Shown piece after piece: positions 44,053-48,509 of a stretch of 64,000 nucleotides of DNA. Within the stretch, counting starts at the first letter, position 1. Each line of letters starts with the position of its first letter. The stretch spans positions 1,066,659-1,130,658 of the forward strand of contig NZ_GL872283.1 in assembly GCF_000191065.1 (NCBI RefSeq), given 5' to 3'. Position numbers and translations under genes: made by a program. Source of the stretch: Prevotella multiformis DSM 16608 (GTDB lineage: Bacteria > Bacteroidota > Bacteroidia > Bacteroidales > Bacteroidaceae). The notes below the pieces were generated by a model. The model saw nothing but the letters and a program-made list of their open reading frames with translations, did no database searches and was not told the origin of the DNA.

Positions 44053-44829
44053 CTACCCCTTCACATGCTTGCGGATCTTCGCCAGATAAGCTTTCATGCC
44101 ATCGGCATCCTTGTCGTCGATGATCTGCAGCAGCTCTTTCAGTTCCGTACGGATCTGCGCCACCTGGTCGTGCGTGCAGGGATTGAAAAGAATCTCCTGG
44201 AGCAGGTAGTCATCCTCATTCAATACGCCCTTCGCTATCTGCATGTGCCGTTTGAAAGTGGTGCCCGGTGCATCCTGGTGCTTCATCACGGCCGCAAAGA
44301 CGAAGGTCGAGACAAACGGAATGCTCAGCGAATAGGCTACCGTCTTGTCATGTTCCTCAAAACTATACTCGTAGATGTTCAATCCCAACCGCTGGTAGAG
44401 ATCCTTGAAGAAGATTCTCCCCATATAGTCTCCCTCGCTGATGAGGATGGCGTTTTCTTCGCTCAGCTGGTTGAGATTGGCAAAGGTCGGCCCGAACATC
44501 GGATGCGTAGACACGTAGGGATGCCCGCAGCGGCCATACCATTCCTTCAGCCCCGTTTTCACCGAACTGATGTCTGACAGGATGCTGCCGGACGGCAGCA
44601 CCGGCAGTACTTCCTCAAAGGCCGGAACCGTATATTTCACCGTCACGGCATTGATGACCAGCTCCGGCCGGAAGGCTTCCACCTCGTCCAAGGTGGTAAA
44701 CCGGCGGCAGTTGTATGTAAAGCGGAGACGGCGGGCATCCTTTTCGTAGGCCGCCACTTCGTGGTCGAAACTGAGCAGGTCGATGAAGAAACTTCCCATC
44801 TTTCCCGCACCCATAATCAGTATTTTCAT
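44053..44829 (-). CDS. tyrA: Prephenate dehydrogenase
   Basis: 258 residues, somewhat short for the family. The NAD(P)-binding motif GAGKMGSFFIDLL opens the protein; STHPMFGPTFANL is the conserved active-site His block. It converts prephenate to 4-hydroxyphenylpyruvate for tyrosine. It is the last gene of the aromatic operon, about 180 bp after the DAHP synthase gene. Confidence 0.9.
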   Translation of the reverse strand: MKILIMGAGKMGSFFIDLLSFDHEVAAYEKDARRLRFTYNCRRFTTLDEVEAFRPELVINAVTVKYTVPAFEEVLPVLPSGSILSDISSVKTGLKEWYGRCGHPYVSTHPMFGPTFANLNQLSEENAILISEGDYMGRIFFKDLYQRLGLNIYEYSFEEHDKTVAYSLSIPFVSTFVFAAVMKHQDAPGTTFKRHMQIAKGVLNEDDYLLQEILFNPCTHDQVAQIRTELKELLQIIDDKDADGMKAYLAKIRKHVKG

Positions 44830-45007: not shown

Positions 45008-46072
45008 CTACCTGTTCACTATCTCCAGCTGCTGGCGCACGCTCTCTTCATGGATCAGCTCGAAGACCTGTGCGGCAAAGTTGGGATCCATGCCGCAAAG
45101 ACTTGCCTGTGCACCGCGCTTCTCAAGTATCTCATTGTACCTGCCGGTCTGCAGGACCGTCATGTTATGCTCTTTCTTGAAAGTGCCGATTTCACGGCAG
45201 ATACGGAAACGCTTGGAAAGAAGTCCCATCAGCGAGTTGTCCACCTCGTCGATCTGCGCACGGAGAAGGCGGAGTCCTTCAGTCGTTGAGGTATGGTCAC
45301 GCACGACCAGAAGCGACAGGATATAATCGAGAATATCGGGCGTGACCTGCTGCTTCGCATCACTCCAGGCTTTCTCCGGATTACAGTGGCTCTCGACGAT
45401 CAGTCCGTCGAATCCCAGGTCCATCGCCTGCTGGCAGAGCGGCGCTATCAGGTCACGGCGGCCCCCGATGTGGCTCGGGTCACAGATGATGGGAAGCCCC
45501 GGGATACGCCGGCGCAGCTCGATGGGAATCTGCCACATCGGCACGTTGCGGTAGATCTTCTTTTCGTAGCTTGAGAAGCCACGGTGTATCACGCCCAGCC
45601 GCTTCAGCCCGGCCTGGTTCAGCCGCTGCAGCGCTCCTATCCATAGCTCAAGGTCGGGATTGACAGGATTCTTCACCAGCACGGGAATGTCCATCCCCTG
45701 CAGGGTGTCTGCCAGTGCCTGCATGGCAAAGGGATTGGCAGAGGTACGCGCCCCTATCCAGAGTATGTCCATGCCGTACTTCAAGGCCAGTTCGACGTGT
45801 TCGGGCGTTGCCACTTCGGTAGAGATCAGCATGCCTGTCTCTTCCTTCACCTCCTTCATCCAGGGCAAGGCCGTTTCGCCATTGCCCTCAAATCCACCGG
45901 GCTTCGTACGCGGCTTCCATATCCCGGCACGGAAGATATGGCAGCCTTTGTCTGCCAGGCTGCGTGCCGTGGACATTACCTGTTCTTCCGTCTCTGCCGA
46001 GCAGGGACCAGCGATGACAACAGGGCGAACATTGTCGCTCGGGAGTCTTAAAGGTTCTAAGTCTAATTCCAT
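45008..46072 (-). CDS. Bifunctional DAHP synthase / chorismate mutase
   Basis: 354 residues. Residues 1-250 are a DAHP synthase (VVIAGPCSAETEEQV, TKPGGFEG, LPIICDPSHIGGRRD). From about 265 an AroQ-type chorismate mutase helix bundle follows (LLRAQIDEVDNSLMGLLSKRFRICREIG). It both feeds and branches the shikimate pathway toward prephenate. The frame extends upstream to 46366 but only MELDLEPL (46072, or MIM at 46078) matches the family start; the rest overlaps the preceding gene out of frame. Confidence 0.93.
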   Translation of the reverse strand: MELDLEPLRLPSDNVRPVVIAGPCSAETEEQVMSTARSLADKGCHIFRAGIWKPRTKPGGFEGNGETALPWMKEVKEETGMLISTEVATPEHVELALKYGMDILWIGARTSANPFAMQALADTLQGMDIPVLVKNPVNPDLELWIGALQRLNQAGLKRLGVIHRGFSSYEKKIYRNVPMWQIPIELRRRIPGLPIICDPSHIGGRRDLIAPLCQQAMDLGFDGLIVESHCNPEKAWSDAKQQVTPDILDYILSLLVVRDHTSTTEGLRLLRAQIDEVDNSLMGLLSKRFRICREIGTFKKEHNMTVLQTGRYNEILEKRGAQASLCGMDPNFAAQVFELIHEESVRQQLEIVNR

Positions 46073-46173
46073 AATCATCTGTTCTTTAGTTTCACTTGAT
46101 GGGATGAGCGCATCGTCCCGTTCCTCCTCAAAAGCCGCACCGGCGGCAACGGCACGGCATCCGGCATACCGCC

Positions 46174-47343
46174 TTACCACTCCAGGGCGGCAATACGGTC
46201 GCATGCCTCCGCCATCCTCTCGTCTTTTGCACACAAGGAAATGCGGACATAACGCCTGCCGTTGCTGCCGAAGATGAATCCCGGGGTAAGGAACACACGT
46301 GCCCCGTGCAGCACCCGTTCGGTCAGTTCCTCCGCATCGGCGTACTTCTCCGGTATCTTTCCCCACAGGAACATCCCCACCTGTGCCCTGTCGAAACGGC
46401 AGCCCAGCAGTGTCAACATCTCTTCGGCCAGGACACGCCGCCGGCGATAGACCTCTATGTTATACCGCCGATGCCATTCATCCGTATTCGTCCTCATGGC
46501 CTCCGCCGCAGCCAGCTGTATGCCCCGGAAAGTTCCCGAATCGATGTTGCTCTTCACTTTCAGTATCCACGAGATGAAAGTAGGATTGCTGATGCACATC
46601 CCCACACGCCATCCCGGCATATTGTAAGCCTTCGACATGGAATTGAGCTCTATGCAGCAGTCTTTGGCACCGGGCACCTGCAGCAGGCTCAGCTTCTCTC
46701 CCTCGTTGAGGATAAACGAGTAAGGATTGTCGTTGACAACCACGATTCCATGCCGGCGGGCAAAGTCGACCAGCCTGACATAGGTCTCCCGGCGGGCGTT
46801 ACCGCCGGTCGGCATGTTCGGATAATTCGTCCACATCAGGCGGACACGGCCCAGATCCATCCGCTCCAATGCGTCGAAATCGGGCTGCCATCCCCTTTCC
46901 TCCCGCAGGTCGTAGGTCACGACCTCTGCTCCGAGCAGCCGTGAGAGGGATGTGTAGGTGGGATAACCGGGATCCGGGACAAGCACCTGTTCGCCGGGAT
47001 TGACAAAGGCCAGGGTGACGTGCAGGATACCTTCCTTCGATCCGATAAGCGGCTGTACCTCGGTCAGCGCATCCACCTCCACGCCATACCAGCGTTTATA
47101 GAAGTCGGCCATCGCCCCGCGCAGTTCGGCTGTGCCCATGGTGGGCTGATAGCCATGCCCTGCCGCCTCCCGGGCGACCTCGCAGAGCTTGTCAATGGTC
47201 TGCTTCGAGGGAGGCTGGTCGGGACTGCCGACAGCCAGGGAGATGATGTCCTGTCCTTCCGCATTCAGTTCTGCCACTTCTTTCAGTTTGCGCGAGAAGT
47301 AGTACTCCTGCACCTCCCGTACACGGCTTGCCGGCTGTATCAT
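46174..47343 (-). CDS. PLP-dependent class I/II aminotransferase (aromatic)
   Basis: 389 residues. Fold-type I aminotransferase with SLAVGSPDQPPS near the start, the substrate loop TNYPNMPTGG and the PLP-lysine block ELNSMSKAYNMPGWRVG. In this operon it most likely transaminates phenylpyruvate and 4-hydroxyphenylpyruvate. Start chosen at 47343 (MIQPASR) because AAGGA lies eight bases before it; 47361 and a GTG at 47391 are alternatives. Confidence 0.88.
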   Translation of the reverse strand: MIQPASRVREVQEYYFSRKLKEVAELNAEGQDIISLAVGSPDQPPSKQTIDKLCEVAREAAGHGYQPTMGTAELRGAMADFYKRWYGVEVDALTEVQPLIGSKEGILHVTLAFVNPGEQVLVPDPGYPTYTSLSRLLGAEVVTYDLREERGWQPDFDALERMDLGRVRLMWTNYPNMPTGGNARRETYVRLVDFARRHGIVVVNDNPYSFILNEGEKLSLLQVPGAKDCCIELNSMSKAYNMPGWRVGMCISNPTFISWILKVKSNIDSGTFRGIQLAAAEAMRTNTDEWHRRYNIEVYRRRRVLAEEMLTLLGCRFDRAQVGMFLWGKIPEKYADAEELTERVLHGARVFLTPGFIFGSNGRRYVRISLCAKDERMAEACDRIAALEW

Positions 47344-47411
47344 AGGCTGTTTCCTTTTCATCTGCTGTTCATGTTCTGTCTGCCGGGGCACTTTCCCCGC
47401 GCCGACGGCTG

Positions 47412-48242
47412 CTAATGTTCTCTGTACTCTCCCAGAATCCTGATGCTTTTCACCAGCGGAGTGATGGCGTCTATCGACTGCCGGTAGCGGGTGAGGCTGT
47501 CAAAAGTCAGGTCTACATAGAAGAGGTATTCCCACTCGTGCCCGATGACGGGCAGAGACTGTATCTTCGTGAGATTGATGCCATAGAAAGAGAGGATGGT
47601 CAGCACCTTGCTCAGAGACCCCTCTTCATGCGGCAGCGAGAATACGATGCTCGCCTTGTCCACATCCGTCAGCGGACGGAGGAAGTCGGCCTTCTGCGGC
47701 TGGCAGGCAATGAGGAAACGTGTGAAGTTGTGCTTGTTGTCCTCTATCGAATCCTCGAGAATCTTCAGTCCGTAGATCCGTGCGGCATCCGCGGCGCAGA
47801 TAGCCGCCCGGCCGCGGCAACGTTTCCGTGCGATACAGGCAGCCGCCCCGGCCGTATCATCAGCCTCCACGGCCTTGAGAGCAGGATGACCGGCAAGGAA
47901 CGAACGGCACTGCATGAATGCCACAGGGTGGGAATGAACCTCGGTGACCGTTGTCCAGTCGTCGTCAGGCAGGCAGCAGATGCAGTGCTGGATATGGAGC
48001 CGCTGCTCGCCTACGACCATTGTCCCCGACTTGCGCAGGAGATCGTAATTGTGCAGCAGGCTGCCGGCTATCGTGTTCTCGATGGCGAGCAGCGCGATGA
48101 CCGTCGGGTCTTTTTCCACCTCCTCGAACACCTTCTCAAAAGTGGTGCAGCATATAAGCTGTACCTGTTCATCGGGAAAGTAAGCATGGGCGGCAATGTC
48201 GTGGAAACATCCCCGTTCTCCCTGTATGGCTATTCGTTTCAT
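47412..48242 (-). CDS. pheA: Prephenate dehydratase
   Basis: 276 residues. The PDT domain (IAIQGERGCFHDIAA, IENTIAGSL, KHNFTRFLI with the catalytic Thr) is followed by a C-terminal ACT domain (KASIVFSLPHEEGSLSKVL) that binds Phe for feedback inhibition. It makes phenylpyruvate. It is the first structural gene of the operon, directly downstream of a Phe/Tyr-rich leader peptide and terminator. Confidence 0.95.
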   Translation of the reverse strand: MKRIAIQGERGCFHDIAAHAYFPDEQVQLICCTTFEKVFEEVEKDPTVIALLAIENTIAGSLLHNYDLLRKSGTMVVGEQRLHIQHCICCLPDDDWTTVTEVHSHPVAFMQCRSFLAGHPALKAVEADDTAGAAACIARKRCRGRAAICAADAARIYGLKILEDSIEDNKHNFTRFLIACQPQKADFLRPLTDVDKASIVFSLPHEEGSLSKVLTILSFYGINLTKIQSLPVIGHEWEYLFYVDLTFDSLTRYRQSIDAITPLVKSIRILGEYREH

Positions 48243-48290
48243 CTGCTTCGTCTGTTTTGTGGAGAACCGGCCCGTCAGAAGGCCGGTCTA

Positions 48291-48325
48291 CGAAAAACGG
48301 CCCTGCCCAGGAATGGGCGGGACCG
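48291..48325 (-). terminator. Attenuator terminator upstream of pheA
   Basis: On minus CGGTCCCGCCCA pairs with TGGGCAGGGCCG (two mismatches) around TTCC and is followed by TTTTT. It sits between the leader peptide and pheA, 49 bp before the pheA start, so it can stop transcription before the operon. Its 5' arm contains TCCCGCC (48316-48322), the exact complement of GGCGGGA inside the leader peptide. Confidence 0.85.
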
Positions 48326-48371
48326 CTTCGTCGTCTGTTTCTTGCTTTATGTGATGGTCATAAGTTGAAAT

Positions 48372-48458
48372 CTACACGCAACCTCCCGCCTTGCAACTTT
48401 CTGCAAAGAAAAAATAAAAGTAACGGAAAGATACATAAGACGTGCTCATAATCTTCAT
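48372..48458 (-). CDS. Phe/Tyr-rich attenuator leader peptide (pheL-like)
   Basis: 28 codons from ATG at 48458 to TAG at 48372. Residues 8-18 read YVSFRYFYFFF: five Phe and three Tyr codons in eleven. This is the hallmark of a control peptide whose ribosome stalls when charged tRNA-Phe/Tyr runs low. Downstream codons AAG-GCG-GGA contain GGCGGGA (48384-48390), complementary to the terminator 5' arm. A consensus promoter lies 20 nt upstream. The peptide itself probably has no other role. Confidence 0.85.
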   Translation of the reverse strand: MKIMSTSYVSFRYFYFFFAESCKAGGCV

Positions 48459-48477
48459 TTTCGTTTGTATTCGACTG

Positions 48478-48509
48478 CAAATTTATTACTTTTATTTCTT
48501 ATCACCAAA
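48478..48509 (-). promoter_or_regulatory. Promoter of phenylalanine/tyrosine operon
   Basis: On minus TTTG (48506-48509), exactly 20 nt, TAAATTTG (48478-48485). It drives the leader peptide and, past the attenuator, pheA to tyrA. Confidence 0.85.

Follow-up and report, generated by a model that had tools for sequence, protein, structure and literature searches.

The DNA upstream of pheA in the window, that is, in the whole 64-kb stretch that was analyzed, very probably encodes a transcription attenuator that works through a translating ribosome and responds to the levels of charged tRNA-Phe and tRNA-Tyr. The codon run, the RNA pairings, their covariation and spacing, and a codon content that matches the operon content support this reading at the level of sequence; stalling, kinetics, and read-through are the inferred parts of the model. 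When Phe and Tyr are ample, the ribosome would pass the Phe/Tyr (F/Y) codons of a short leader peptide, reach the stop codon, and cover an RNA segment (region 2), and with region 2 covered a terminator would form before pheA. When either amino acid is short, the ribosome would stall in the run with region 2 just clear; the free region 2 would pair with region 3 ahead of the synthesis of region 4, and transcription would then continue into pheA-aminotransferase-DAHPS/CM-tyrA.

All parts of the feature lie on the minus strand of the window, from the promoter to tyrA (48509 to 44053). The putative promoter consists of a –33 element, TTTG (48506 to 48509), and, after a 20-nt spacer, a –7 element, TAAATTTG (TAnnTTTG; 48478 to 48485). 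This arrangement fits the Bacteroidota type, in keeping with the promoter proposed in an earlier sequence-only reading of this DNA; it is missing from the output of the sigma-70 scan. The leader open reading frame (ORF; 48372 to 48458) comprises 28 codons and reads MKIMSTSYVSFRYFYFFFAESCKAGGCV up to its stop codon, with the control codons Y V S F R Y F Y F F F at residues 8 to 18 (48405 to 48437). The ORF and its run had thus been described correctly, but the conserved start is, judging from the alignment, probably the inner ATG at 48449, giving 25 codons; the leaders of relatives align with this ATG, which lies 28 nt past TAnnTTTG, and the commonest distance in relatives is 26 to 29 nt. Eight of the 11 residues in the run are F or Y, and at least seven F/Y within 11 codons are found in the six frames of the 64-kb window only in this run and its overlapping shifts.

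Region 2, the predicted 5′ arm of the antiterminator, is GGCGGGA (48384 to 48390), and region 3, TCCCGCC (48316 to 48322), serves twice, as the 3′ arm of the antiterminator and within the 5′ arm of the terminator. The two are exact reverse complements (48390-48384 and 48322-48316), as the sequence-only reading had it, although GGCGGGA follows the last Phe codon (48407-48405) after 14 nt and not after the roughly 20 nt given there. The hairpin of the intrinsic terminator (48293 to 48328, with a U-run at 48297-48293) has a predicted fold of –22.9 kcal/mol (z of –4.5) and is absent from the output of a simple terminator scan; the terminator placement 49 bp before pheA was also borne out, position 48291 lying 49 nt before the first letter of the pheA start codon ATG (48242). 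Between terminator and pheA there is a second GC-rich hairpin, ACCGGCC...GGCCGGT (48266-48287), without a U-run. The whole window leader folds better than 200 of 200 shuffles (z of –3.3). A 7-nt GGCGGGA/TCCCGCC complement arises by chance in about 2% of shuffles and is weak alone, so that conservation in relatives decides the case.

Downstream of the leader lie four minus-strand genes that we infer to form one operon: pheA, encoding prephenate dehydratase (47412 to 48242; PF00800, E value of 1.6e-53); a class I/II aminotransferase gene whose start codon is uncertain (46174 to 47391; PF00155, 2.7e-56); a gene for DAHP synthase fused to chorismate mutase (DAHPS/CM), with a 5′ boundary of our choice (45008 to 46084; PF00793 and PF01817); and tyrA, encoding prephenate dehydrogenase (44053 to 44829; PF02153, 6.4e-08).

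PheA matches were found in 79 of 100 genomes of the genus, 128 of 151 of the family, 80 of 198 of the order, and 216 of 247 of the phylum, with a few genomes recurring. The first loci comprised 119 of approximately 205 genus- and family-level matches and 67 of approximately 77 order-level matches, mostly the better ones. A leader was scored when a short ATG-initiated ORF with at least six F/Y in 10 codons lay no more than 450 nt upstream of pheA. By this criterion, leaders precede pheA at 113 of 119 genus- and family-level loci and in 173 of 186 upstream regions at order level and closer, compared with 9/186 antisense strands, 19/1860 Markov sequences, and 9/1244 other windows of the same loci. 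F or Y accounts for 552 of the 565 residues at the last five run positions of the 113 leaders (the last position by construction), and TAnnTTTG occurs no more than 70 nt ahead of the leader ATG in 108 of these leaders, versus 6 on the antisense strand. The misses among the first 119 loci are L037, L053, L079, L094, L097, and L118; L053 has, by eye, a shorter F/Y run, and the L037 genome carries a leader on separate aminotransferase genes. Of the misses at order level, L187 and L210 have GTG-start candidates, L217 has a candidate further upstream, and L178 lies at a contig end; the counts are kept as first made. A further F/Y leader, MNLFSTTYYFFFFYFYFFSK (L129, 38-137, minus strand), also sits at a contig end and may belong together with the pheA of L178, which is from the same genome.

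Among further ordinary family-level loci, 18 of 19 carry the leader (L424, L425, L427-L430, and L439-L450; the miss is L431). Divergent order-level PheA genes have it in two of seven cases (within L431-L438, only L434 and L435), and the low-identity PheA genes found in the family, which share about 30% identity with the PheA of the window and have longer frames, in 0 of 13. In most of the low-identity loci L411-L422 an AroA-like C terminus is seen by eye just upstream, marking a different, leaderless operon. The 46 phylum matches examined consisted of the 27 best (24 from the same class, 3 from the same phylum only), of which 26 have a leader, together with 19 weaker matches that lie outside the class, a single one with a leader. 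Named loci, mostly from Prevotella and its relatives and with some genomes overlapping the other sets, have it in 79 of 80 cases; the leader of Phocaeicola vulgatus ATCC 8482 (locus L352) is MKALYNTYFFFFYYFYFSNKVKREFVCVR. Since the counts differ in this way between pheA homologues, the leader belongs to one pheA type and the operon of that type and is not a property of PheA homologues in general.

The RNA pairings are retained along with the codons. The sequence that follows the last F/Y codon was searched for its best helix with the terminator 5′ side; this region 2/3 helix exceeded the 95th percentile of mononucleotide shuffles in 107 of 113 leaders. Counted from the first nucleotide of that codon, region 2 starts at 11 to 18 nt in 110, and the terminator position is uncorrelated with that of the stop codon (r of –0.04). 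The sequence-only reading had named relatives with the same operon but without peptide or pairing as evidence against it; with 113/119 loci bearing the peptide and 107/113 the helix, such relatives exist, but few operon-bearing ones lack these elements. Outside the family the letters of the helix vary greatly; even so, the helix is above the 95th percentile of shuffles in 74 of 87 leaders and starts at +11 to +20 in 68 of the 87. The alignment that had been suggested as a check (A1, 113 sequences; the shuffles ignore relatedness) retains the F/Y codons and indicates covariation of the antiterminator. In 89.2% of cells the antiterminator positions are paired, against 42.7 to 49.2% when slid by –1, –2, or +1 to +3 and 31.2% at –3, and two-sided changes occur in 6 of 10 pairs (38 cells; shuffle mean of 14.3, slid 6 to 18). 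Further pair types are within the shuffle range for this helix (73 of 500 shuffles reach the number), and its covariation score of 0.113 is nearly equaled by slides –1 and –2 (0.098 and 0.096). For the terminator, 89.9% of cells are paired, with two-sided changes in 6 of 9 pairs (62 cells; shuffle mean of 21.9, slid 5 to 18).

These data bear on the idea that the RNA switch controls translation of pheA or the stability of its mRNA rather than transcription termination. Bacteroidetes generally lack Shine-Dalgarno sites (PMC3155529), so other forms of initiation control are conceivable; however, a hairpin with U-rich sequence is found in 113 of 113 leaders under a relaxed rule and in 104 under a stricter one (three have poor hairpins), the terminator helix covaries, and the distance from terminator to pheA varies widely among leaders. 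We therefore regard control at the level of translation or stability as very unlikely, and transcription attenuation is retained.

A third stem, hairpin B, consists of AAGUUG/CAACUU, replaced by UCGUUG/CAACGA or GAGUUG/CAACUC. It is strong in 33 of 51 leaders with a stop codon at +33 versus 3 of 62 others, and the number of its pairs with two-sided changes is within the shuffle range (297 of 500 reach it); it is a clade-specific accessory stem. In the window, which is outside the strong cases, the corresponding position (48362 to 48383, spanning the stop codon) pairs GGUUG with CAACUU, including one G-U, more weakly than in relatives. Apart from this clade-specific hairpin and the region 2/3/4 helices, the alignment contains no broadly conserved block. 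This speaks against a ligand-binding riboswitch, a T-box, or a protein-binding attenuator with an incidental ORF, an explanation to which a structured leader with a terminator and an alternative pairing would otherwise be congenial; that explanation would also leave the fixed spacing to the F/Y codons unexplained, and at the gathering thresholds Rfam yields only RNase P RNA and tRNA in the window. We give this explanation almost no credence. The two Rfam hits are an RNase P RNA at 1848-2233 and a tRNA gene at 72-142, both on the minus strand.

The ORF is short, conserved, and rich in aromatic residues, as might be expected if it encoded a small hydrophobic protein with a function of its own and the hairpin were an ordinary terminator. 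Against this, the last five run positions hold F or Y and not L, I, or V, the Phe/Tyr content follows the operon (see below), and the stop codon drifts, from +12 to +54 in the 113 leaders. Moreover, the C terminus of the peptide changes frame between clades (CEAGSCV versus KREVVCV) with the underlying DNA kept, which points to a constraint on the RNA. An independent small protein is thus highly improbable.

The attenuator reading was examined further by modeling, with an assumed ribosome footprint that extends 15 nt beyond the P-site codon in each direction. In a nascent model, in which the RNA was folded only to the end of region 3 and 2:3 pairing was scored at a mean probability above 0.5, a ribosome placed on the last F/Y codon allows the pairing in 111 of 113 leaders and one placed on the stop codon in 25, and with no ribosome it forms in 90; the window values are 0.99, 0, and 0.99, respectively. 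The proposal that a stalled ribosome frees GGCGGGA for the antiterminator is thus supported by the model. When the ribosome stands on the last F/Y codon, its footprint overlaps region 2 in 30 of 113 leaders, by more than 3 nt in 3; when it stands at the stop codon, it covers at least half of region 2 in 86 and leaves it wholly uncovered in 16. The complementary proposal, that a ribosome at the stop codon covers GGCGGGA, holds in the model for the window and for all 86 of 86 leaders with a stop at or before +36 (window included), in which 2:3 pairing is prevented, but not for those with a stop at +39 or later, where 2:3 still forms in 25 of 27 under the masking model. In these late-stop leaders the ribosome would sit inside the 2:3 loop, where hindrance or timing may be at work. 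Equilibrium folding of the full-length leader was considered as proof of switching and rejected, as the terminator wins: 2:3 exceeds 0.5 in 22 of 113 leaders with a stalled ribosome, 0 with one at the stop, and 1 with none (practically none in the window), and 3:4 does so in 90, 113, and 112, respectively. Since equilibrium favors the terminator, kinetic precedence, given by the order of synthesis, would be required.

The sequence-only reading had also matched the mixed control codons to an operon making both Phe and Tyr, and operon content in relatives agrees with this. Where an aminotransferase gene, DAHPS/CM, or tyrA follows pheA (fused operons), at least two Tyr codons occur in the run of 118 of 119 leaders, versus 0 of 5 for stand-alone pheA, whose leaders, from five families, have runs that are Phe-only or nearly so (Fisher P of 2.7e-8, relatedness ignored). 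This comparison left out the leaderless L037, L053, L173, L175, L176, L178, and L248 and the contig-end L012. Of the operon/Tyr predictions written in advance, 18 of 19 held and that for L203 failed. Eight genomes were queried for the DAHPS/CM gene. In six of them the aminotransferase/DAHPS or tyrA/DAHPS genes are separate and carry a leader with Tyr codons, namely G276 (MIKNISVFAYFYYYFYFSKK), G389 (MSTFAYFYYYFYFNIK), G266 (MNNTFGYYAFYYYFFYNN, before tyrA, PF02153), G355 (MATQLFVYSYYFYFSWTS), G244 (MNRWFATYYYYYFYFQNK), and G209 (MQQLNAYVYSYYYFTLTR); G177 has the fused gene order, and in G084 a leader was not found in the DNA stretch examined. The pheA gene itself has no leader by the criterion in G389, G355, and G244. 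Trp codons were considered as a third input but are not put forward as one: Trp makes up 1.4 to 1.6% of leader residues outside the family and 0.2% inside it, as raw shares without a background rate.

Taken by the features by which attenuation is recognized, the locus has a short leader ORF rich in codons for the products of the operon, an intrinsic terminator (by sequence and fold) between the leader and the first gene, an antiterminator that shares the terminator 5′ arm and covaries, and a modeled stalled ribosome that leaves region 2 free. What was looked for in the leaders and not found is a conserved 1:2 pause/protector hairpin, which is usual in enteric attenuators and which we treat as usual, not defining. 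The mean best 1:2 helix is 12.4 in real leaders, 12.2 in synonymous-permuted ones, and 12.7 in shuffled ones; an individual 9-bp 1:2 match is present in the window.

We tentatively put forward, as a possibility that we rate below even chances, a joint default-on reading, i.e., a protector-less, dual-input attenuator with a drifting stop that belongs to a codon-exchangeable suite. Only a ribosome past the Phe/Tyr run would turn the operon off: with no conserved partner upstream of region 2, read-through would be the outcome whenever the leader is not translated, and drift of the stop codon would be tolerated, since a ribosome could act either on region 2 or from within the 2:3 loop. Across the order, leuA and trpE, and possibly his operons as well, would be served by this scaffold fitted with different codons, and the codons of such exchangeable attenuators would track operon splits.

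Leaders for other amino acids were seen in several places. A Leu-codon leader, MKAYFYTLLLHGELSELIF (L155, 1501-1609, minus strand), lies before a LeuA-type gene (PF00682 and PF08502), as does an Ile/Leu-rich one, MFNISLNINLIIILLSGDE (L359, match at 253-353 of the reversed locus; PF00682 and PF08502). A WWW leader, MNQIINIHAWWWYCGIYAQRAKPFTWM (L371, 251-349), precedes a gene for anthranilate synthase component I (PF00425 and PF04715), and a leader with four His codons, MNFYQLHHHHMLTFPQVK (L151, 17-105, minus strand), sits at a contig end with a terminator-like hairpin after it. The covariance model R1 is unspecific, matching many ordinary terminators, often on both strands, and its tallies are therefore unused; a plausible leader was found in 3 of the 18 non-pheA matches examined (L359, L363, and L371), and its other matches in G000, the genome of the window, are weak (L121 and L122 were inspected). 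L121 (G000:C2 near 229,700), outside the window, contains repeated GTTGTTGTTGCTACCACAAAGGTAGGAATTTTCAAGCAAATCACAAC units resembling a CRISPR array. In G000, rated 98% complete, there is no HisG or IlvD family match, and auxotrophy for His and branched-chain amino acids is possible; no clear Thr leader precedes its homoserine dehydrogenase gene.

The kind of attenuation is known and its principle is textbook. In enteric bacteria the pheL leader peptide contains Phe codons, and the E. coli pheL-pheA leader (Rfam RF01859, Phe_leader) shares with the present element a Phe-codon leader peptide and a terminator switch upstream of pheA; the latter differs in its mixed, often alternating Phe and Tyr codons, its Bacteroidota promoter, and its lack of conserved 1:2 pairing. 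In the window RF01859 scores 16.4 bits (E value of 5.5), below the gathering threshold of 55, and the best of 19 relatives reaches 32.4; subthreshold Rfam matches in these relatives are spread over several different amino-acid leaders. The multi-amino-acid attenuators of ilvGMEDA and thrABC likewise use one leader for more than one amino acid, with different amino acids and in a different phylum. Bacteroid-trp RNA (RF01692) is located before trp genes; it has no match in the window at gathering (49 bits) and none in G000 at an E value of 0.001. PMC2864571 lists it as a cis-regulatory candidate of Bacteroidetes, and the pheA motif reported there is from Actinobacteria. Already in print is, for Flavobacteriaceae, a structured 5′ element ahead of pheA, described in a section of PMC9723704 that also gives clues for leader-peptide attenuation at amino-acid operons. 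It is probably the Flavobacteriaceae form of the present element, which has thus been partly glimpsed before; the Phe/Tyr codons, the antiterminator, the wider range, and the operon test do not appear in that section. Leader-like small ORFs in long 5′ untranslated regions of B. thetaiotaomicron are mentioned in PMC7366714, nothing on pheA was found in the passages of PMC8040213 consulted, and in 2010 the authors of PMC2965389 knew, ermC aside, of no leader-peptide system outside Proteobacteria and Actinobacteria and added one in bacilli. Among the papers that the searches listed, mostly outside the subscription literature, no description of a Phe/Tyr switch with its codons, range, and operon link was found. 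Work by Lopatovskaya from 2010, cited in PMC4833913, may contain related predictions.

What appears to be new here is a predicted Phe/Tyr switch in many relatives, with codons that follow the products of the operon and without an Rfam match at gathering. It would provide an amino-acid control point shared widely within a large group of gut and environmental bacteria, among whose regulatory RNAs few are understood. The Phe-only or nearly Phe-only leaders of stand-alone pheA and the Tyr-containing leaders on separate genes offer a natural test of specificity, and, if the default-on reading is true, the coordination of ribosome and polymerase would become testable in bacteria largely without Shine-Dalgarno sites.
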